Source: a virus. Taken from it: DNA of 20,452 bases. Each line of letters starts with the position of its first letter. Position 1 is the stretch's first letter. The DNA is taken from IMG/VR virus record IMGVR_UViG_3300033145_001309, positions 1 to 20,452 of that record; one strand, given 5' to 3'. A program made the position numbers and the translations under genes. Of this stretch, positions 39 to 20,436 are shown one piece after another. The notes below the pieces were generated by a model. That model did not search any database, was not told the DNA's origin, and was given only the letters and a program-made list of their open reading frames with translations.

Positions 39-1319
39 ATGAAAAAAATAAAATTATTATTTTATGGAGATTCGCCCACTGGTAACACTGGGTTTGCAAC
101 AGTAAGTAAAAATATTCTAAAAAGATTACAGGCTACTGGGAGATATGATATTACAATACTTGGTATAAATTATTTTGGCGAACCTCACAATCTTCCATAT
201 AAAATACACCCTGCTGTTTATAACAATCAGAATGATATTTATGGACGACAAAAACTTTTAGATTTATTAAGAAATCAAAAAAATGTTTTTGATGTTGTTT
301 TTACACTACAAGACACATTTATTATGGCATCAATTGGAGAAGCTATTAAGAAAATAAAAGATGGAGCAATAATAGAAAAGGAAGTAATAAATAAAGAAAC
401 AGGAGAAAAATCAATTAAGAAAGTTTTTCAAAAAGGTAGAAACTTCAAATGGGTTTATTATTATCCAATTGATTGTCGTCCAGAAAAAGAATGGATAAAA
501 AAATCAGTAGCATTCGCTGATGTAGCAATTCCTTATACTAACTATGCTAAAAAAGAAAGTGCCTTAGTTTTTGAAAGAGACTATAAAGTTTTATACCACG
601 GTTTTGATAAAAAAACTTTTCACCCTGTGAGCAAAGAAGAAAAAGAAAAATTTAAAAATAAATTCTTCAAAGACAACAATTTAAAAGATTCATTTCTAAT
701 TGTTAATGTTAATAGAAATCAAACTAGAAAAGGGATGCTTCAAACATTATTAGGATTTAAACAATTTAATCAAATAGTCCCTAATTCAGTCTTATATACT
801 CATTGCGATTTATATGATACAGCTGGTTATAATTTAATGAAATTAGCTAATAAAATAGGACTAAAAGAAAATTGGTTATATCCAAACCCAGAACACTTTA
901 AATTGAAACATACCTTTAGTGATGATTTTATTAACTTAATTTATAACATTGGAGATGTTAATTTATCAACAACGTTAGGTGAGGGATTTGGACTCTCCAT
1001 GGTAGAAGCTATGGCAACGAAAACAATCAACGTTTTTCCAGATAATACAGCTATGACTGAGATTCTAGGAAATAAGCGTGGAATTCTTGTAAAAAGTGGG
1101 AATACTCCCAATCATTTAATATGTAATGGTCCAATTGATAATAACCAAGTTAGACCTTTGACTGATATTCACGACTTAGTGGGTAAACTTTTATGGGTTT
1201 ATTCTCATGAGGAAGCTAAGAAAAAAATTGAGGAAACTGCTTATAGCTGGGCTCAAGAAAATCTTGATTGGGATATTATTGTGAAAAAATGGGATAATTT
1301 AATTATTGATATAATATAA
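39..1319 (+). CDS. GT4-family glycosyltransferase
   Basis: Predicted retaining sugar transferase of GT-B fold (GT4, 'glycosyl transferases group 1'), moving a sugar from a nucleotide-sugar donor to an unknown acceptor. The N-terminal half opens with a Rossmann strand followed by a Gly-rich turn (DSPTGNTGFA, about residues 11-20). The C-terminal half has the phosphate-contacting basic stretch NRNQTRKG (about 225-232) and the family E-x7-E signature EGFGLSMVE (E315 and E323), followed by a 'GILV' strand. At 426 residues it is a normal length for a complete enzyme. There is no signal peptide or membrane segment, so it is probably cytoplasmic. It starts at the first ATG after an A/T-only leader without Shine-Dalgarno. 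It is on the strand opposite the structural operon, with a small unknown gene 2 nt downstream. Family is well supported; substrate is unknown. It could act with the minus-strand GT2 enzymes of this window on a virion or host glycan (inference). Confidence 0.88.
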   Translation: MKKIKLLFYGDSPTGNTGFATVSKNILKRLQATGRYDITILGINYFGEPHNLPYKIHPAVYNNQNDIYGRQKLLDLLRNQKNVFDVVFTLQDTFIMASIGEAIKKIKDGAIIEKEVINKETGEKSIKKVFQKGRNFKWVYYYPIDCRPEKEWIKKSVAFADVAIPYTNYAKKESALVFERDYKVLYHGFDKKTFHPVSKEEKEKFKNKFFKDNNLKDSFLIVNVNRNQTRKGMLQTLLGFKQFNQIVPNSVLYTHCDLYDTAGYNLMKLANKIGLKENWLYPNPEHFKLKHTFSDDFINLIYNIGDVNLSTTLGEGFGLSMVEAMATKTINVFPDNTAMTEILGNKRGILVKSGNTPNHLICNGPIDNNQVRPLTDIHDLVGKLLWVYSHEEAKKKIEETAYSWAQENLDWDIIVKKWDNLIIDII

Positions 1320-10373: not shown

Positions 10374-11408
10374 CTAGTAAACCTTAGCGTTAAGAAGAAC
10401 TTCTGGATGAATAATCCTTGGGAAAGCGTCTAGTCCAACCCCTGCAAACATTGCATAAGGATCTTTCTTTTCTTCAGTCCAAGTATAATAACCAGGAGTG
10501 TAATTAGCCAATGCATGGCCAACTCTAGCTGTATCACCTATTCCATCAGGGAGTAATTCCTTAGATGGTAACATAATGATTTTATCTTCAGCTAACATTC
10601 TTGAAGTCGTAGTTCCTTCTTCATCTGTATAACGAGTGTTATATAGAATTATTGAAATACCTAATTCTGACTCAACATAACTTTGAGTCTTGTTAGGAGA
10701 GAAAACTGGGCTAGTGTATTTCAAGGTGTCTCTCATCTGAGCAGATTGAGCAATGTATTGTAATGCTTGAGAACTCATTATCACTACATCAGGTCTGATA
10801 CCACAATTATCCTCAACCACCTTCTGCCAACCCATTATATCGTCTAATGGTGTTGATGTTGCTACAGTACTCCAATCAGTTGTAGGAGTTAAACCTTTCT
10901 GTGTTGCTACCAAGCCATAGTCTACGTCAAACTTAACGTCTCCTGAGTAGGTAATCTTGCCTAAAAGAGCATTGATTTGCATCCATTCAAGACGACTATC
11001 AATAGCAGTCTTACATCTTTCTAATGCTTGTCTAACCTTTCTTTTTGCTTCTGCTCCTAATTGAGAAGTGATTGAAACTTTACCATCGACGACAGGTAGC
11101 ATCCCTGCTTCTCTAATTTTTCGTAAATCAGACATATTAAATCGCTCTTTTCTAGCAATACTTACTACGTCTGCATAAGCTCTATCAAAAGCTTGTCTTC
11201 CAACTAATTCAGCTTCACCATCTACTGCTCTAAACTTAGCAAGTGGATTTGTGGCTCTAATAATATCCCACATTGTTTCCTCAGTGGCTGAATCATAAAA
11301 AGGAAGAAAATCTAAACCAATTTTTTTACCACCTTTGTTTTCAAGTTTTCTAACAACTTTCGTCATTGTTGCTTGATCAAGGCCGTAAATTTCTAACTTC
11401 TTTGACAT
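10374..11408 (-). CDS. major capsid protein (lambda gpE-like, HK97 fold)
   Basis: Main shell protein, 344 residues, of the 'phage major capsid protein E' family. Landmarks are the N-terminal segment with FLPFYDSATEETMWDII, the arm/E-loop region 'KFRAVDGEAELVGRQAFDRA', and the P-domain helix in 'KRKVRQALERCKTAIDSRLEW'. The A-domain stretch IRPDVVIMSSQALQYIAQS is diagnostic ('.PdvlvmG..A...l'). The C-terminus has GYYTWTEEKKDP and 'PRIIHPEVLLNAKVY'. The length is normal for gpE-like proteins without a long scaffold domain, which agrees with scaffold residues being supplied by the upstream protease gene. It follows the decoration gene by 29 nt. A stable hairpin lies directly after its stop. Confidence 0.92.
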   Translation of the reverse strand: MSKKLEIYGLDQATMTKVVRKLENKGGKKIGLDFLPFYDSATEETMWDIIRATNPLAKFRAVDGEAELVGRQAFDRAYADVVSIARKERFNMSDLRKIREAGMLPVVDGKVSITSQLGAEAKRKVRQALERCKTAIDSRLEWMQINALLGKITYSGDVKFDVDYGLVATQKGLTPTTDWSTVATSTPLDDIMGWQKVVEDNCGIRPDVVIMSSQALQYIAQSAQMRDTLKYTSPVFSPNKTQSYVESELGISIILYNTRYTDEEGTTTSRMLAEDKIIMLPSKELLPDGIGDTARVGHALANYTPGYYTWTEEKKDPYAMFAGVGLDAFPRIIHPEVLLNAKVY

Positions 11409-11868: not shown

Positions 11869-13098
11869 CTAATTAGTTTCTTTGATAAATTCGTCAGCTT
11901 TTTTTTCTGCTATAGAATCAGCACTTTTCAATTCAGTTTCTTTTTTAGAAACTTCCTTTTTGCTTACTTTTATCTTCTCGTCATCTAATTTAACCATTTC
12001 TGGGATTGAAGAGAAAAGTTCTTTATATGATTCTAATTGTTCTTCTGACAAACTTTTAGCGAATACGATATGTTGTTCTTTTGAAGCAGGTAACATTTTT
12101 CCATTAGTTACTAGCTTTTCAAAGAAATCAACAAGAATCTGTTCTTTATATTTTGACAATTCCTTAGCTTCTTTAGGAAATTGTTCCTCAAATGACAACT
12201 TATTTTCGACCTTGTCAATTTTCCCCTTAACGACAGACTCTTTCCCCTCTTTCTTAAAATTACTTTCTTCTTTTTTAACAGATTTGACAGAAGATTCGTC
12301 CTTTTTTTCAGACTTCTCTTTAGTCAATTCAGTCTTTTCAGAGAAAGTATTTTTTTCTTTTTTAATTGGATTCATTGAATTTATTGAGTTAAGATTTAAT
12401 AAATTTATATTTTTTGAATAAGTAAACTTAGGAGAGAGACCTTCGACCGCAGGGATATCAACCCACGCTACTCCAAATAAAACAGGTGAATAAATAACTC
12501 CTTTGTTGTCATCGTAGTCTCCTATCTCTGCACTTCTATTAACGTAAGTTCCTTCTTGAATTTTTTCCCACATATTCTCATTAGTAATTCTGAAATCGGC
12601 TACTAGCTTTTTTCCAACTAATTTAAGGTCAGAAATATATCCTCCAACTTTATCAATTACATCGCCGATACCAAACATTGAAGGATGATCTGCTCTTACT
12701 GGCACGTGTGGAAATGTATCGAATGATTTGAGATAATGGAAATTAGCTACCATTTTTTCTAATGCTGACATTTTAAATTGAACTCCTTTGTAGGTCCCTG
12801 CTTTAAAAATTTCAACATCTTTTAATATCTTTCCTTCTTTAATTGAATTTATCTTCTTATCTTTTTTACTAAATTTAGAAGAAGAGAAGTATAGGTGATG
12901 AGTTTTACTTGCAACAATCTCTCGAGGCTTTTCTTTTTTTTCTGGGACTTTTTGACTCATAATAGATGTTTTGCAAATAGAAATAGCGGAGTCTTTTGAT
13001 TTCCCACTCTTCATTATTTTTTTTACACATCTATCCATTTTTGATGTTAATTCTTCTGGGATTCCTGAATATGGCATACTTTTAAATTTAAAATTCAA
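11869..13098 (-). CDS. prohead protease fused to a scaffold-like C-terminal region
   Basis: Head maturation protein of 409 residues. Residues about 8-47 are a small Cys-containing helical module (PEELTSKMDRCVKKIMKSGK to SAISICKTSI) seen at the front of some phage proteases. Residues about 85-225 are the protease-like domain: FPHVPVRADHPSMFGIGDV with H138, then GGYISDLKLVGKKLVADF and 'IQEGTYVNRSAEI' with S189, then GVAWVDIPAVEGLSP. H138 and S189 are the best catalytic candidates; I infer this from conservation and have not proved it. Residues about 245-409 are Lys/Glu/Ser-rich and helical, like scaffolds that protease genes of lambda and Mu carry at the C-terminus. An internal ATG at residue 242 sits after an A/T-rich stretch that looks like this phage's gene leaders, so scaffold alone may also be made. 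It lies directly before decoration and capsid genes. Confidence 0.75.
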   Translation of the reverse strand: MNFKFKSMPYSGIPEELTSKMDRCVKKIMKSGKSKDSAISICKTSIMSQKVPEKKEKPREIVASKTHHLYFSSSKFSKKDKKINSIKEGKILKDVEIFKAGTYKGVQFKMSALEKMVANFHYLKSFDTFPHVPVRADHPSMFGIGDVIDKVGGYISDLKLVGKKLVADFRITNENMWEKIQEGTYVNRSAEIGDYDDNKGVIYSPVLFGVAWVDIPAVEGLSPKFTYSKNINLLNLNSINSMNPIKKEKNTFSEKTELTKEKSEKKDESSVKSVKKEESNFKKEGKESVVKGKIDKVENKLSFEEQFPKEAKELSKYKEQILVDFFEKLVTNGKMLPASKEQHIVFAKSLSEEQLESYKELFSSIPEMVKLDDEKIKVSKKEVSKKETELKSADSIAEKKADEFIKETN

Positions 13099-13140
13099 TT
13101 ATTATAATAAGACTAAAAAAATAATTAGCACTTGTCAAGA

Positions 13141-15150
13141 CTATCTTTGATCTCTTGTTTTTTTAATAGCTACTTTTAGCTCTTGAGTATCAATATTTAC
13201 AAAAATATAATCAGTTTCTCCAATACTAGGACTAGCACTAGCACTTTCAGATGAACTCTCTGAACTTGATGGAGATAGACTGGGAGAATCAGAACTACTA
13301 GGACTTAGTGAAGAACTCTCAGAAGAACTTTCTGAAGAACTTTCGCTTGAACTTTCACTTGAACTTTCTGAAGAACTTTCGCTTGAACTTTCACTTGAAC
13401 TTTCAGATGGACTCTCTGATGAACTTGGTGATAAAGATGAACTTTCAGAGGAACTAGGACTCTGGCTTGGGCTTTCTGAGCTAGATTCTGATGAACTTTC
13501 AGAGGAACTAGGACTCTGGCTTGGGCTTTCTGAGCTAGATTCACTAGAACTTTCAGAGGAACTAGGACTCTGACTTGGGCTTTCTGAGCTAGATTCACTA
13601 GAACTTTGGCTTGGGCTTTCTGAGCTAGATTCACTAGAACTTTCAGAGGAACTAGGACTCTGGCTTGGAGAGTCTGAACTAGATTCTGATGAACTTTCAG
13701 AACTACTAGGACTCTGACTTGGGCTATCGGAACTAGATTCACTAGGACTTTCAGAACTACTAGGACTCTGACTTGGGCTATCTGAACTACTTGATGAAGG
13801 TGAGTCTGATGAACTAGGACTCAACGAGGGACTATCAGAGCTACTTTCGCTTGAGGAATCCGAAGAACTCTCTGAGGAAGACTCTGAGGAACTAGGACTC
13901 AATGATGGCGAATCAGAACTACTAGGACTCAATGAAGGCGAGTCTGATGATGATGGTGATTGGCTGGATGACTCTGAGCTACTTTCACTTGGAGAATCTG
14001 ATGAGCTAGGAGATAGACTAGAACTAGGGGACAAACTTGGTGAATTTGAACTACTCTCAGAAGGACTTTCTGATGGTGATTCAGACGAGGAGGGTGAACC
14101 TGCTACTGTATAATAAACAGTAATACGAATATGATCAACTTGAGAGGAAGTGTATGAAGCTATGTATGTTGATAAAACTACTCCAAAATCTATATCATTT
14201 ATATCTGTATTAGACCAAGTTTCACTCCATAAATCAGTAGAATCACCATAAGAACTATATACAAAATTTCGGTCATCCCAAACAGTTCCTAAAGCTTTGT
14301 TTTCGCTTCCTATTGTTCCGTCAGCTTTAACAATTTTAACATTTTCATCATATGTTGGTGAACCTGAATATTTTTTTATTTCTACTAAAATACCATCTAT
14401 TGTTGCTCCAGCAGAAATATTGAATCCAAAATTAGTTGCTTTCAAATAATGAGAATAGTCTCCTCCGGAGGAGCTAGCCTCTGCAGCACTCCCGTCTTCA
14501 ACTTTCGCATTATCTGGGTTTGACCAAGTCTTAGTCCCTACAGCACTATCATCTGCCATTGTTCCTGGGCTTGTTGCTGTTGTATCTGGGTCAACTAACT
14601 CTCCCTTTTTTACATCAACTTCCCAAAAAAACTCATATTTGTTTACTAAAGTTTTGTCGCCTTTGATTGAATCTATTTTTTTTCTTTTAACTCCGTCAAT
14701 TTCTTCTTCTGACATTCTTTGGGCATCTTCTTTAAATTTCAAATTACCAATTCCAGTTTTTTTAACTTTCCATTTGACTTTTTTATCTTCTTCAACTGAT
14801 TGCCATAATTTAATTCCCTCAACTGATATTTGTGGTTTAACTAACACTCCCTCAGTAATTAAATCAACTTGAACTTTACTATTAGTTTTTCTCTCTTTAA
14901 TTATATAGCCAGTGTTGTCTTTTTTTAACCAAATTTTGTTTGGCAATTTATCATAAAACCAATAATCGCCATCTTCTTTTTTAGAGGTTAAATCAATATC
15001 TTTCCAATCATCTGACTCTAAATAATTTTCTTTATAATGAACAGCCGAAAGACCAGAGATAGCCTTTCTTTTGCCTCCTCCTAAGTCAAAGACTTTTACA
15101 TTTTCAGTCCTTCGTTCTACTATTTCGTTAGTTATATTTTCTTTATCCAT
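13141..15150 (-). CDS. mucin-like serine-rich repeat protein, putative virion surface protein
   Basis: A 669-residue protein in three parts. Residues 1-190 are a charged beta-rich domain (RTENVKVFDLGGGKRKAIS, 'VHYKENYLESDDWKDIDL'). Residues about 190-350 form a beta-sandwich of a type common in phage and surface proteins (TKTWSNPDNAKVEDG, YLKATNFGFNISAGATIDG, VDHIRITVYYT). Residues 352-642 are a low-complexity tract in which every second residue is Ser, 146 in a row, with Pro, Ser, Glu, Asp, Gln or Leu between. A 27-residue tail (IGETDYIFVNIDTQELKVAI and on) closes it. No signal peptide, membrane segment or LPxTG anchor is seen, so it is probably a virion protein, not a secreted one. Its start overlaps the end of a GT2 gene by 19 nt, so the two are coupled. 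Alternating-Ser tracts are O-glycosylation substrates in bacterial adhesins; that it is glycosylated here is inference. Other options are a spacer or fibre stalk. Confidence 0.75.
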   Translation of the reverse strand: MDKENITNEIVERRTENVKVFDLGGGKRKAISGLSAVHYKENYLESDDWKDIDLTSKKEDGDYWFYDKLPNKIWLKKDNTGYIIKERKTNSKVQVDLITEGVLVKPQISVEGIKLWQSVEEDKKVKWKVKKTGIGNLKFKEDAQRMSEEEIDGVKRKKIDSIKGDKTLVNKYEFFWEVDVKKGELVDPDTTATSPGTMADDSAVGTKTWSNPDNAKVEDGSAAEASSSGGDYSHYLKATNFGFNISAGATIDGILVEIKKYSGSPTYDENVKIVKADGTIGSENKALGTVWDDRNFVYSSYGDSTDLWSETWSNTDINDIDFGVVLSTYIASYTSSQVDHIRITVYYTVAGSPSSSESPSESPSESSSNSPSLSPSSSLSPSSSDSPSESSSESSSQSPSSSDSPSLSPSSSDSPSLSPSSSESSSESSSDSSSESSSDSPSLSPSSSDSPSSSSSDSPSQSPSSSESPSESSSDSPSQSPSSSESSSESSSDSPSQSPSSSESSSESSSESPSQSSSESSSESPSQSPSSSESSSESSSESPSQSPSSSESSSESSSESPSQSPSSSESSSLSPSSSESPSESSSESSSESSSESSSESSSESSSESSSESSSLSPSSSDSPSLSPSSSESSSESASASPSIGETDYIFVNIDTQELKVAIKKTRDQR
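13225..14097 (-). repeat. Ser-x dipeptide repeat tract
   Basis: Encodes residues 352-642 of the serine-rich protein. Ser occupies every even position without exception. The intervening residue is Pro, Ser, Glu, Asp, Gln, Leu, rarely Asn or Ala. The register never slips, so all insertions and deletions in its history were multiples of 6 nt. It is acidic overall. Confidence 0.9.
13441..13800 (-). repeat. 54-bp tandem repeat array inside the serine-rich gene
   Basis: The string ACTTTC recurs (plus-strand reading) at 13441, 13495, 13549, 13603, 13639, 13693 and 13747. Spacing is 54 nt except for one 36-nt unit that has lost 18 nt. Neighbouring units are nearly identical and each codes for 18 residues. 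This indicates recent unequal duplication and probable copy-number variation. It is a coding tandem repeat; there are no unique spacers as in CRISPR. Confidence 0.85.
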
Positions 15151-16787
15151 AAATTTTTAATATTATTTTCTTTCCAATTTCTACAACTTCTGTAACTTTT
15201 AAAGTCTTCTGGTCTCCATTTACTCGCTGAAAAATTTCCACCGTGTCTTATGTCGATATTCGGTTCTTTTGAATGAAAATGTTCAGAACTACTATTAGAA
15301 AAACCACCTCTCTTTATGCTTCTTGTTCCGGGTTCATATCCTCCGTTATGAAATCCATTTTTTTCTACGTCGGCTACTCTGTGTTTAAATTCTTTTATTA
15401 AAGTTTCTCGATAAGCACATATTTGCGATAAAGACTTGTGATCATATTTTACTGCAAATCCATCTGCTAGTCTGACTCTCCATAGATTATCATTATAATA
15501 AAAAATATCTTTATTCTCTGGTATGAAATCAAAATGAGATGGATGATATAGGACATCGTGTTCACAGAAGAAAATAATGTTTGCATCGCTTTCTTCAAGA
15601 GCTTTTAAAATTTGTCTAAACATTGTTAATTGCCCTCGTTTTCCTTTTATAACAAAATTCTTACCAAATTTCAAGGGCTTTAATGAAGTACTAACTATAG
15701 GTAACCCCGATTTAGTTATTTGTTTTCTGCATTTATGAGCTAGTCTCATATTTAATCTATTGTCAGTATAATATATAATACCTTTAGAAATGCCTTTATT
15801 TTTCAAATTGGTCAAATCCTCTTCTGTCCATCCACGGACTGGCCAAAACTTTTCTACTAACCAAGAGGTTGGTTTTGTTTGTTCTGGGAATTTACCTTCA
15901 AACATTAATTTTCTAGCGTATTGCTTTGCTTCTTGAACCTTGGACTCCTCTTGTTTGTATGGGAATGAAAAGTCTCCTCCTTGAGTTCTAAATAAATGTG
16001 CATACCAACATCTCTTATTAACTATACATCGTCTTCCGGATAACCAGAATGAACATGCTATTTGAATCCCTTGACTTCCCCATGACCCAAACTTCTCATC
16101 TCCTATATTTAATTTCCAGTAGTTCTTCCTTGTCATCATAAAAAAACTTCCTTGTAAGCTCATTGTTTCTACTAAATCACCTTTTTGCTTTTTTTTATAT
16201 TCTCCGAAGTACTGAAAATGAGGCTCACTATCAAAACAATAAGAAGTACTATTCGGTGATGGATTTGGTTGCCAATAAATTACTTTTTTAAAATCAGTTT
16301 TGTTATCACAATCTTTATTTGGTTCTCTACTGTTTCTATTTCCGTTAATTTGAACCTTGCACTCAGTCGGTGTTGCTCCTTGGTACCATTCATTCCCGCA
16401 TTTATTACATTTCCAATTAAAAGCATGTAAATTTTTCATTAAGGGGATTGCAACTATTTCATCTCCTAGTTCTTCGAATGTTTTAAGCATCTCTATATCA
16501 AACCCTTCTGAAAAACAAGTATGAGCATCTACTTTTGCTATATATTTAGCTTTGGAAAGACTTACACATTTATTAGTCATTTCTCTTTGACCAATACTTT
16601 CTGAATAATGAATTATAACAACATCTGGATGATCAATTATCTGCGGATCAGCCCATTCTCCGTCTAACCCAATAATTATCTGAGTTTCTGCTCTTTTGTT
16701 CTTTAAAATATCCTCAACAGTATTTTTTAAAAATACTTCATTTCTAGCTGGGATAACTATTGATAATTTATACTTTGACAAAGTCAT
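15132..16787 (-). CDS. two-domain GT2 glycosyltransferase with zinc-ribbon insert
   Basis: A 551-residue enzyme. Residues 7-270 are a GT-A fold GT2 domain: LSIVIPARNE at the start, LDGEW (41-45), and the metal site VDAHT (D87-A-H89). WG (236-237) and H264 follow in the acceptor-side region. DxH, WG and a later His recall polypeptide GalNAc-transferases. A likely zinc ribbon is inserted at about 127-160 (CNKCGNEW, then C143 and C160). From about residue 335 a second domain begins (GIIYYTDNRLNMRLAHKC). It contains ANIIFFCEHDVLYHPSHFDF with an EHD (409-411) that could be a second nucleotide-sugar metal site. The C-terminus is basic with many Arg/Trp. There is no signal peptide. It overlaps the serine-rich protein gene by 19 nt, which makes that protein its most obvious substrate (inference). 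Donor sugar is unknown. Confidence 0.82.
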   Translation of the reverse strand: MTLSKYKLSIVIPARNEVFLKNTVEDILKNKRAETQIIIGLDGEWADPQIIDHPDVVIIHYSESIGQREMTNKCVSLSKAKYIAKVDAHTCFSEGFDIEMLKTFEELGDEIVAIPLMKNLHAFNWKCNKCGNEWYQGATPTECKVQINGNRNSREPNKDCDNKTDFKKVIYWQPNPSPNSTSYCFDSEPHFQYFGEYKKKQKGDLVETMSLQGSFFMMTRKNYWKLNIGDEKFGSWGSQGIQIACSFWLSGRRCIVNKRCWYAHLFRTQGGDFSFPYKQEESKVQEAKQYARKLMFEGKFPEQTKPTSWLVEKFWPVRGWTEEDLTNLKNKGISKGIIYYTDNRLNMRLAHKCRKQITKSGLPIVSTSLKPLKFGKNFVIKGKRGQLTMFRQILKALEESDANIIFFCEHDVLYHPSHFDFIPENKDIFYYNDNLWRVRLADGFAVKYDHKSLSQICAYRETLIKEFKHRVADVEKNGFHNGGYEPGTRSIKRGGFSNSSSEHFHSKEPNIDIRHGGNFSASKWRPEDFKSYRSCRNWKENNIKNLWIKKI

Positions 16788-16829: not shown

Positions 16830-17057
16830 ATGAATAAAAGTATGAGTCCATTACCAGTACACTCTCTTCTTGATTTTCCATCTGCTATTAAAAAAGTGAT
16901 TGAAGGAAACAAAATATACAGACTTGAATGGAAAAATGAAGAATTTTACGGAATGTTAAAAGATTCTCATTTAAAACTCCATAAACCTGACGGCAAATTT
17001 TATGACTGGATACTTAACGATGGGGATCTAAAAGGAACTGATTGGATTATTCTTTAA
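16830..17057 (+). CDS. Tad2-like (DUF2829) small protein, putative anti-Thoeris sponge
   Basis: A 75-residue protein matching the outline of the DUF2829/Tad2 family: FPSAIKKVIEGNKIYRLEWK (about 16-35, 'f.eAi.alk.GkkV.R..W') and a C-terminal DGDLKGTDWIIL ('.Dl.A.DW.iv'). Known Tad2 proteins bind the cyclic ADP-ribose isomers that Thoeris TIR proteins make, so the effector is not activated. This copy is slightly short, and the glycine-rich 'W.GkgMfi' part is altered (WKNEEFYGMLKD). Binding of a signal is therefore not assured. It is the only plus-strand gene inside the late operon, with a sigma70-like promoter just upstream. It overlaps the 3' end of the methyltransferase gene by 11 nt, tail to tail. 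An early, host-polymerase-driven defence-evasion gene would fit this position. Alternatives: another DUF2829 protein without anti-defence role. A second Met at residue 5 is a possible start. Confidence 0.68.
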   Translation: MNKSMSPLPVHSLLDFPSAIKKVIEGNKIYRLEWKNEEFYGMLKDSHLKLHKPDGKFYDWILNDGDLKGTDWIIL

Positions 17058-17634
17058 TAAACATCCAGCTAGGACATTTATCACCTCTAAAAATAAATAG
17101 GGGTGATATTTTTTTACAATAAATCCAAGTGTTTACAGCGTCTTTCACATCAATTGCTTTGTCGGTATGTCTTCTGAAGTAATCGTGCCCTGCAACAATA
17201 CCTCCTTTTTTAACTTTTTTAGACCAACCGTTTATGTCTTCTATTACAAATTCTAAAGAGTGATTGCCATCTATAAAAACGAAGTCTAATGATTCATCTT
17301 TAAAATCCTTAACTGCATCCATACTCCATTTCTTTATAATATCACAGTTATAATCTTTGACTCTATTTCTTGCCTCTTGTTCGTAACCAATGAAGTCGCC
17401 ACCTTTATAATCATTATAACCATCATAGTCTTCCCAAGGATCTATTCCGAACATCTTAAACTCTTTGCAAAGATTTTTTAAAAATTGACCTTTAAATACT
17501 CCTATCTCTACTCCGACTTTAAAACCGAGAGACTTAAATAATGGTGTCATTTCTTTCCATCTACTTTTTGGTATATCTATCACTGGTTTTTCTTCTAGGT
17601 TATATCTTTTTAGAATCTCTGCTTTTATATCCAT
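17047..17634 (-). CDS. class I SAM-dependent methyltransferase (methyltransferase 24-like)
   Basis: A 195-residue methyltransferase of the Rossmann type. The SAM-binding motif I is VGVEIGVFKGQF (40-51), a ribose-binding acid is in GIDPW (D65), and LDFVFIDGNHSLEFVIEDI (116-134) covers the central strand plus the 'IDGdHsye.v..Di' motif of the methyltransferase 24 group. KKGGIVAGHDY (142-152) follows ('L.pGG.i..HDy'). Members near glycosyltransferases usually methylate sugars or small molecules. There is no DNA-methyltransferase (N/D)PPY motif, so it is not a restriction-type enzyme. It lies between two GT2 genes in the same direction, 10 nt from the upstream one. O-methylation of the transferred glycan is the likely job (inference). 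Its 3' end overlaps the opposing Tad2-like gene by 11 nt. Confidence 0.83.
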   Translation of the reverse strand: MDIKAEILKRYNLEEKPVIDIPKSRWKEMTPLFKSLGFKVGVEIGVFKGQFLKNLCKEFKMFGIDPWEDYDGYNDYKGGDFIGYEQEARNRVKDYNCDIIKKWSMDAVKDFKDESLDFVFIDGNHSLEFVIEDINGWSKKVKKGGIVAGHDYFRRHTDKAIDVKDAVNTWIYCKKISPLFIFRGDKCPSWMFIKE

Positions 17635-17644
17635 TTTTTTTAAA

Positions 17645-18493
17645 TTAATCTTTATATAATATTTCTTTCCAATTCTCTGGCCATCCAGGTATTGGCATAA
17701 ACTTCTCTATAAACTTAATAAAAAATTCTTTTTCTTCTATGACCCATTTATTATAAGCATACTCATAACTTTTTCGTGTCATGTCTTTACTCAAAAAATA
17801 CATCCTTCCGTATTTCTTGCCCTTGTGTAAATGAGCGTAATACGTATTCTTATTAGTCTTAACCTCTCCTCCGTTTTTCCAAGTTTCCATACATATCTCT
17901 TCCGCCTCTTGACCCCATTTCTGATATTTATAATCCATAAAACCTCTCTCTATAAACCACTTTTTAGTCATAAACCAACATGAAGCTTGCATTGTCATTG
18001 TCTCATCTAACATTATATCTTCTTTTTCTCTAGTCTTAGCATCCCACTTAAACCCATGTAAGCCCCTAGGAGTAAATTTACCAGGGAACATAATATATTC
18101 ATAATCGATAGGTGGTCTATCATCACATTGCTCTTGTAAGCACCAATTCTCTGCGTCTAAGCGGTTTCTACGAGGAACCTGTACCCAATTAGGTCTATGG
18201 TCCTTTATCAACTGCTCATCGAATCCTTTTGCCATCATACAATGAGCATCTAGGCTCATAACATACTCACCTTGGCAAACAGCTACCATCGCATTAATTC
18301 CTTGTCGTTTGCCTAATCCTGTTTTGAAATGAATATATTTAACACGTTTATCATTTACTACTTCTTCTTCTGGTATATTATATCCATCTAAAATAGGAAA
18401 AATTTCTATTTCTCCAGTAGCTTTTTCTAACACATCTTCGATTGTTCTTTTCAAGAAAATTTCATTTCTTGATGGAATGGCGATTGATAGCAT
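17645..18493 (-). CDS. GT2 glycosyltransferase with GalNAc-transferase-like motifs
   Basis: A 282-residue GT-A enzyme made almost only of the catalytic domain. It starts LSIAIPSRNE (2-11), has the donor-loop ILDGY (34-38), the metal site SLDAHC (D82-A-H84), and the acceptor-side motif WGQEAEEICMETWKNGGE (193-210), followed by YYAHLHKG with H221. The set DxH, WG-E-E, W--GG and a later H is arranged as in polypeptide GalNAc-transferases (DxH, WGGEN-E, WxCGG, H). Ordinary GT2 enzymes have DxD instead. It has no lectin domain, signal peptide or membrane anchor, so it would work in the infected cell's cytoplasm. It aligns part by part with the N-terminal domain of the larger GT2 (15132..16787), suggesting duplication and divergence. 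Substrate is unproven; the serine-rich protein downstream is the candidate. Confidence 0.83.
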   Translation of the reverse strand: MLSIAIPSRNEIFLKRTIEDVLEKATGEIEIFPILDGYNIPEEEVVNDKRVKYIHFKTGLGKRQGINAMVAVCQGEYVMSLDAHCMMAKGFDEQLIKDHRPNWVQVPRRNRLDAENWCLQEQCDDRPPIDYEYIMFPGKFTPRGLHGFKWDAKTREKEDIMLDETMTMQASCWFMTKKWFIERGFMDYKYQKWGQEAEEICMETWKNGGEVKTNKNTYYAHLHKGKKYGRMYFLSKDMTRKSYEYAYNKWVIEEKEFFIKFIEKFMPIPGWPENWKEILYKD

Positions 18494-19669: not shown

Positions 19670-20254
19670 TTATTTAATTAATCCCCAAATTTTTAATAAG
19701 TTTCTTTTTACATCTAATAACAATTTATACAAAGCACTTTTCTTCTCTAATGCTATTTTTAGATCCATTACTTCTTTTTTTCTATTCTCTAATGACCTTA
19801 AAGTCTCTATTGTATCTTTATAGATTATTTTCTTTTCTGGGGTTTTCTTAAAGGCCTTTTTTAAATCCTCCGCTGCTCTCTTTTGTTCTTTTTCGTTCAT
19901 TACCTTTCCATAATCGTCTTTAGTGATGTCTTCAATAACATTTTTAAGAACACTTTTAACATTATACATATTTTCTTCTTTAAAATTTAATTGTTGTAAC
20001 AACCACTTTTTTGTAATTGCCCATCCCGGGCAGGATCTTTGAGAAAAGTTTCTGTGGAATGCTGTCTCGCTGTCTTTAATCTTGAGTTTTTTTTGAAGAA
20101 TTTTTATCACTCCTAGTGCAGTGTCTTTTGTTTTCCCACTCCAAACTTCATTATCATAGTTACCAACAATTTCTATCCCTACCGAATAACCCGACTCAAT
20201 CGTCCCATTTCCTTTCCCTGCGTGATAAACAAATGAGGGCCTTTGCCTCCCCAT
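19670..20254 (-). pseudogene. C-terminal part of a broken N-acetylmuramoyl-L-alanine amidase (endolysin)
   Basis: This frame holds the second half of an amidase_2-type domain: YHAGKGNGTIESGYSVGIEI (10-29, second Zn-ligand His and the 'siGIE.vG.yd' strand), 'FHRNFSQRSCPGWAI' (third ligand Cys75), then a Lys/Glu-rich helical tail (about 95-194) that may bind the wall or be a separate gene from Met96. Its apparent start at ATG 20254 is inside the amidase fold and yields MGRQRPSF, unrelated to the family, so it is not a natural start. The first half lies in the +1 frame (20179..20436). About 18 residues that normally join the halves are missing, so simple frameshifting would not restore the family sequence. 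Intact relatives cut the amide bond between muramic acid and L-Ala. Confidence 0.7.
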
Positions 20255-20436
20255 CCTTTTCTTCTGTAGTATCTATCCAATGAATCAATAGAAGTTTTAC
20301 CATTCCAGCTCTCTTTTGTTGGTTTCCATGTATGGTGAATCACTAAAAATGACGGTGGTATTTTACCAAAATCTTTTTTTTCAACATACTTTTTAAACTT
20401 TTTCAATGATAGTTTTTCTTTAATTGGTGTTGACAT
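20179..20436 (-). pseudogene. N-terminal part of the broken amidase endolysin
   Basis: An 85-residue frame. Residues 29-70 are the start of an amidase_2 domain: PPSFLVIHHTWKP with the first Zn-ligand His pair, 'SIDSLDRYYRRKGWGGKGPH' and LFI. After LFI the frame runs into TQGKEMGRLSRVIR and a stop, which is shadow sequence from the other half's frame. The natural continuation (HAGKGN) is in the -1 frame a few bases later. Residues 1-25 are a Lys-rich leader without signal peptide, so export would need the neighbouring holin. Together with 19670..20254 this is one endolysin gene disrupted by a deletion whose size is not a multiple of three, or an assembly error. First gene visible in the late operon. 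Confidence 0.7.

Follow-up and report, generated by a model that had tools for sequence, protein, structure and literature searches.

To our knowledge, O-glycosylation starting on dense Ser/Thr tracts has so far been treated as an invention of animals (mucins) and of Gram-positive bacteria (SRRPs). A virus record of IMG/VR, a 20,452-base stretch of DNA analysed as a whole and referred to below as the window, raises the question of whether phages too possess enzymes that build glycans on such tracts. A preliminary description of this DNA had reported two glycosyltransferases with the DxH, WG-E-E, WxxGG and His motifs of polypeptide GalNAc-transferases, located next to a Ser-rich protein, and had inferred that their acceptors are proteins rather than lipids or wall components. 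The window is a phage fragment carrying lysis, head and tail genes, with amidase-like, head maturation protease, head decoration, major capsid, minor tail, tape measure and tail collar genes. The amidase-like endolysin gene (19670-20436, minus strand) is split into two overlapping frames, 20179-20436 and 19670-20254, owing either to an assembly error or to a real frameshift. At its far end, the fragment encodes a further, unrelated group 1 glycosyltransferase (PHROG 2170) in the opposite orientation (39-1319, plus strand).

The glycosyltransferase GT-a and its active site

GT-a (P0001) is a protein of 282 residues encoded at 17645..18493 on the minus strand, and the motifs attributed to it are in place, i.e., DAH at residues 82-84, WGQE at 193-196, E199, WKNGG at 205-209 and H221. 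Residues D82, H84, E196 and H221 are strictly invariant in 68 divergent relatives with identities down to 37%, E199 is kept in at least 90% of them, and in the ten close relatives H223 is invariant together with the four others. Such an invariance across 68 sequences rules out a chance origin of the motifs. The WG-E motif holds only for its glutamate, E196, since W193 and G194 vary, are already gone in two relatives (L010 and L011), and are replaced in the majority of sequences by F-x-Q-E. Because W193 and G194 are not conserved, the constant core of GT-a is reduced to DxH ... E ... H, and the WGGExxE motif of GT27 with its conserved Trp is not met, this Trp being present in P0001 and variable in the family. 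In the alignment produced by the single-sequence PDB search, the His of the GalNAc-transferase HxFR motif stands opposite H221, at a place where GT-a reads HLHK. It is proposed that D82-x-H84 and H221 act as metal ligands and that E196 and E199 line the sugar and acceptor pocket, the convergence of these residues in three dimensions being inferred and not measured.

The only significant Pfam domain of GT-a is a GT2 domain (PF00535) covering residues 3-102 with 54.1 bits against a cut-off of 23.3, accompanied by a sub-threshold galactosyltransferase match over residues 174-222, a pattern that a GT-A enzyme from the GT2/GT7/GT27 neighbourhood should show; no lectin domain was detected by Pfam in the 282 residues. 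The PF00535 match is a clan-level statement that cannot separate GT2 from GT27. A profile search of GT27 against GT2 had been suggested as a means to decide, and it returned full-length matches on polypeptide GalNAc-transferases, not on polymer-forming GT2s, with which the structural comparison agrees. Polypeptide GalNAc-transferases rank first in the single-sequence PDB search (5.6e-5), they form the top chains for a profile of 10 sequences (A1; GalNAc-T4 at 2.3e-7 over residues 3-260), and they are the best single-domain matches for a profile of 68 sequences (A2; about 1e-10 over residues 6-260), which chondroitin synthase equals only when the scores of its two domains are summed. The AlphaFold model (AF2) of GT-a is confident (pLDDT 95.9, pTM 0.92) and, among its 1,234 Foldseek matches in the PDB, the first 50 are all GalNAc-transferases (best 1.5e-15, TM about 0.62-0.73), the class of enzymes that initiates mucin glycans in animals. 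A neighbouring GT2 of the same cassette type, taken as a control of specificity, matches other glycosyltransferases only and no GalNAc-transferase, which rules out that any GT2 would give these matches. GT-a is a soluble, probably metal-dependent GT-A enzyme with a GalNAc-transferase-like layout of the active site.

The gene cassette and the Ser-tract protein

The gene of P0003, a SAM methyltransferase (Methyltransf_24, PF13578, 60.4 bits; 17047..17634, minus strand), starts 10 nt past GT-a, and is followed by GT-b (P0002, 551 residues; 15132..16787, minus strand), the second glycosyltransferase, identified from its A3 profile, its model and Foldseek. The 3' end of GT-b is overlapped by 19 nt by the gene of P0004 (669 residues; 13141..15150, minus strand). 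The cassette abuts the head module, where a head maturation protease (11869..13098, minus strand; PHROG 976, 1.9e-36) is the next gene downstream and the major capsid protein (PHROG 29, 3.7e-50) occupies 10374..11408 on the same strand, and the lysis genes lie on the other side. No hydrophobic segment occurs in GT-a, GT-b or the methyltransferase, which fits the needs of a cytosolic modification; the window cassette contains no lipid-carrier partner and the window no export machinery.

The Ser-rich neighbour is real, for P0004 contains 192 Ser within a tract of 300 residues (348-647). Its non-repetitive N-terminal part (residues 1-348; 14107..15150, minus strand) matches neither Pfam nor PHROG and is homologous, according to tblastn, to segments in two related loci (L238 and L035); it is probably the virion-binding part of the protein. 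Some Ser-tract proteins of related loci match PHROG minor tail or Laminin G. One of them (L206:14666-18223) possesses an N-terminal Laminin G/ConA-like domain and may be of the kind reported as 'lectin AMG' for Patescibacteriota phages.

To what extent the enzyme and the tract occur together was assessed in both directions. A profile scan of viral contigs with the glycosyltransferase gave 198 relatives; the 80 best were retained, and an alternating-Ser protein (SPSxSxSPSxS) is encoded on the same strand in 67 of the 81 phage loci found by means of the glycosyltransferase alone. None of 120 control loci, drawn with an arbitrary 14-mer, contains an alternating-Ser tract (Fisher 8e-40). The loci are not fully independent, and thinning at 70% identity of the glycosyltransferase leaves 48 loci with the tract out of 60; the control loci also have a lower mean length (8.6 vs 12.9 kb). 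The arbitrary 14-mer was used in place of a Walker-A-like pattern, which had yielded only 10 control loci, and the capsid protein of the window, with only 6 relatives (2 of them with the tract), offered too few as a phylogenetic control. Reciprocally, a DNA pattern for SPSxSxSPSxS retrieved 120 loci, 18 of them with a true tract, and the glycosyltransferase is found in 7 of these 18 as compared to 0 of the 102 devoid of a tract (p 5e-7); the 11 others show no visible glycosyltransferase, though many of them are short. The inference of a protein acceptor is thus supported by a statistical association in both directions with alternating-Ser proteins, the acceptor itself not having been shown biochemically. 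The tracts consist of 53% Ser and 1% Thr, with mostly Pro, Ala or Val elsewhere, and the median protein contains 106 Ser.

Among the 14 loci lacking the tract, about ten break off close to or at the expected position of the S gene (that of the Ser-tract protein), and L040 and L082 encode Thr-rich repeats. The closest relative of the window (L003) ends inside an apparent S gene, and no tract is visible in the available sequence of the viral loci L031 and L036. Orthologous virion-type proteins occur with the Ser tract in L056 (6469-7980) and without it in L040 (5606-7366), the latter protein carrying Ig-like domains with Thr/Pro mucin-like linkers between them.

Clustering of the proteins from the 81 loci yields as recurrent enzymes the glycosyltransferase family itself (81/81), the P0003 methyltransferase family (58/81) and the long second glycosyltransferase (51/81). 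The genes are commonly arranged in the order GT-a, methyltransferase, GT-b, S, or else in the order TerL-like, portal-like, scaffold-like, capsid-like, S, GT-a, methyltransferase, ..., GT-b, S, in which the TerL, portal, scaffold and capsid labels were assigned by eye from the sequences. The S gene often lies immediately 3' of the major capsid gene and the cassette often beside capsid and tail genes; some loci, often incomplete ones, contain GT-a and no GT-b. Related loci contain, in addition, members of the UDP-glucose/GDP-mannose dehydrogenase family (16 loci), an NAD-dependent epimerase (5 loci), and further GT2s and methyltransferases, and these accessory genes fit the building and capping of a glycan. 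In L003, the GT-a of which is 87% identical to that of the window, an APS kinase (PF01583) and a sulfotransferase-like ORF lie between GT-b and the S gene (12322-13178), which suggests that the glycans are sulfated, sulfation being an inference from these genes; an ORF related to that of L003 immediately precedes the tract gene in L228.

Distribution and probable hosts

Isolate phage records contain no match to P0001 or P0002, and when they were queried with two further members of the family, one gave two weak partial matches and the other none. A search of 84,980 species genomes yielded 33 loci, about 30 of them in Patescibacteria/CPR MAGs, so that the family extends beyond animals and phages and, its cellular relatives being mostly from CPR MAGs, the hosts of the cassette phages are inferred to be, probably, the ultra-small CPR bacteria. 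A weaker match to the family occurs in a 697-residue ORF of a Heimdallarchaeota MAG (L235). In the phylum of one cellular locus, the gene was found in 3 of 192 genomes, 2 of which were already known. The strict Ser tract is present in 10 of the 33 cellular contigs and, as 23 show none within 10 kb, other acceptors are possible there. Some of the cellular loci, such as L206, lie on clear phage contigs. In four others (L211, L216, L223 and L226), the cassette and a Ser-tract protein are found amid apparently chromosomal genes of CPR MAGs, e.g., a methionyl-tRNA-synthetase-like gene in L226, and represent either a host-encoded version or a prophage remnant. In the tree of GT-a, nine cellular sequences are scattered among those of phages and require 9 changes of label, which points to repeated exchange, with the caveat that phage contigs may have been binned into MAGs.

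Possible role and comparison with known systems

The reading that best accounts for these data, with a probability of about 0.68, is that of a phage-encoded cytosolic O-glycosylation cassette of a mucin/SRRP-like type acting on a Ser-repeat virion protein. In the cytoplasm of the infected cell, GT-a would transfer a sugar, by guess a HexNAc from a metal-bound UDP-HexNAc, to the hydroxyl groups of Ser in the alternating-Ser tract that the adjacent virion protein carries, and the two-domain GT-b would then extend the glycan, the order of the two steps being a guess as well. The P0003 methyltransferase would cap or methylate the glycan, and related phages have, in addition, sulfation genes and enzymes that form uronates or epimers. 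The end product would be a mucin/SRRP-like bristle on the virion, the glycans of which could serve for protection of the particle, for adhesion or for mimicry of the host surface. The invariant motifs, the match of the fold, the existence of the cassette and its association with Ser tracts are observed; the donor sugar, the linkage, Ser as the acceptor and the location on the virion are inferred, in the absence of biochemical evidence. A cytosolic process is consistent with the soluble enzymes, the nucleotide-sugar genes and virion acceptors that are assembled in the cytoplasm. Against this reading stand the generic GT2 assignment by Pfam, the level score of chondroitin synthase with the A2 profile, the loci devoid of a tract and the Gln positions of GT-b described hereafter. 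A wider proposal, still tentative and in our opinion somewhat short of an even chance, regards the cassette as a prokaryotic and viral counterpart of the mucin-type system, with enzymes of the GalNAc-transferase clade, repeated exchange between CPR bacteria and their phages, and dense, methylated or sulfated bristles on alternating-Ser virion proteins that possibly mimic the CPR host's surface or that of its partner cell.

Which of the two enzymes would act first depends largely on GT-b. GT-b too had been credited with the motifs, and indeed contains D87-x-H89, W236-G237 and H264-x-F266-R267, but Gln occupies both Glu positions (Q239 and Q242) and WLSGR stands for WxxGG. Q239 sits at the first Glu of GT27, where the GT-b consensus also has Gln; at Q242, at least 90% of the relatives of GT-b have Glu as GT27 does, and the window copy, with Gln at two GT27 Glu positions, may for this reason be weak, impaired or inactive. 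Direct searches with P0002's own peptides retrieved no relatives, which came instead from the loci found with P0001. The model is confident (pLDDT 92.8) and its Foldseek matches are K4 chondroitin polymerase (K4CP) and GalNAc-transferases; the family of the C-terminal region is unknown, and this region also exists as a stand-alone protein in CPR gene clusters. A serious alternative, unlikely as we judge it, is that the same glycoprotein system operates in reverse, GT-b initiating on Ser and GT-a extending. The N-terminal domain of GT-b scores highest against GalNAc-T1 (A3 profile, 2.1e-12) and retains exactly the HxFR motif, invariant in its family, where GT-a has HLHK, and there is a precedent for GT-a as an extending enzyme in glycopeptide-preferring GalNAc-transferases or bacterial extension glycosyltransferases. 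The reversed order is opposed by the Gln at the first Glu position in the window copy and the consensus of GT-b and by the loss of the second Glu in the window copy, as well as by the four invariant residues of GT-a and its occurrence without GT-b in some loci.

It is improbable that the cassette modifies the host surface instead, by altering a lipid-linked or wall glycan for seroconversion or superinfection exclusion, with the Ser-tract protein as a mere neighbour. In Patescibacteriota phages, lectin genes and those for nucleotide sugars have been interpreted as host-surface genes (PMC12911398), and related glycosyltransferase clusters exist in CPR MAGs, several of them without a nearby Ser tract; but the window cassette lacks both a membrane segment and a lipid-carrier partner, the two-way association with the tract is strong, the cassette is flanked by lysis genes on one side and head genes on the other, and in many loci the capsid gene immediately precedes S. 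A pair of GT2s of the chondroitin-polymerase type, making a free or capsule-like polysaccharide, is more doubtful still: the whole GT-b model resembles K4CP (5.4e-14) and the A2 profile matches chondroitin synthase, but the TM values towards K4CP are only 0.32-0.35, single-domain scores favour GalNAc-transferases for both enzymes, the window is devoid of export machinery and DxH replaces DxD. DNA hypermodification can hardly be entertained. DNA-glycosylating phage glycosyltransferases do exist (cited in PMC12619734), but a gene of the thymidylate-synthase/hydroxymethylase type is missing from 23 of 24 related phage records (possibly fragments), the fold matches are polypeptide transferases and the Ser tracts would remain unexplained.

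If glycosylation of a Ser-repeat virion protein is indeed the function of the cassette, phages would represent a third setting for dense-tract O-glycosylation and a source of small, soluble polypeptide glycosyltransferases of bacterial type. One would also have to ask how the particles of CPR phages, of which no cultured example was found, are coated, and the lectin and nucleotide-sugar 'auxiliary metabolic genes' of Patescibacteriota phages (PMC12911398) could alternatively be read as serving the decoration of the virion rather than a change of the host surface. A single enzyme and a single synthetic peptide (SPSSSESPSESSSDSPSQSPSSS) would suffice for a direct test of the claim concerning the acceptor.

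With respect to known systems, the GT27 enzymes (GalNAc-T1/T2/T4/T12 and Toxoplasma GalNAc-T3), the best PDB neighbours of GT-a by profile and by structure, share with it the GT-A fold, the DxH motif, the two Glu and the C-terminal metal-ligand His. Most but not all GT27 members possess a ricin-type C-terminal lectin domain. GT-a, which is only 15-22% identical to them, lacks this domain and the Golgi anchor, its family does not conserve the Trp of WGGE, and its acceptors apparently are Ser rather than Thr. The Gram-positive SRRPs GspB, PsrP and SraP are initiated by GtfA-GtfB, of GT4 type, and exported by the accessory Sec system. Long alternating-Ser tracts, linked glycosyltransferase genes and cytosolic O-glycosylation, the last being only proposed here, are common to both, but GalNAc-transferase-type GT-A enzymes and virion-linked proteins distinguish the phage cassette, and neither GT4-type GtfA/GtfB initiators nor accessory Sec (SecA2/Y2) occur among its recurrent families. 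K4CP, a GT2 with two GT-A domains, recalls the two-domain arrangement of GT-b, but is a DxD polymer former with a low TM to GT-b, the N-terminal domain of which is nearer to GalNAc-T1. Mycobacteriophage glycosyltransferases glycosylate virion proteins at the C-termini of capsid and tail tube proteins (Freeman et al. 2023, Cell Host Microbe, as cited in PMC12363180 and PMC12619734). Both systems rely on phage-encoded glycosyltransferases, with virion proteins as established acceptors there and as proposed acceptors here, but the system described here differs in combining several enzymes in one cassette with an alternating-Ser protein dedicated to it. A GalNAc-transferase-like annotation has also been given to an archaeal protein (PMC10939349). 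Within a partial coverage of the literature, no published report was found of this cassette in CPR phages, nor of a pairing of GalNAc-transferase-type enzymes with virion proteins of the alternating-Ser kind. Taken singly, glycosylated virions and Ser-repeat glycoproteins have precedents; their combination, the clade of the enzymes and the probable host range appear to be new.
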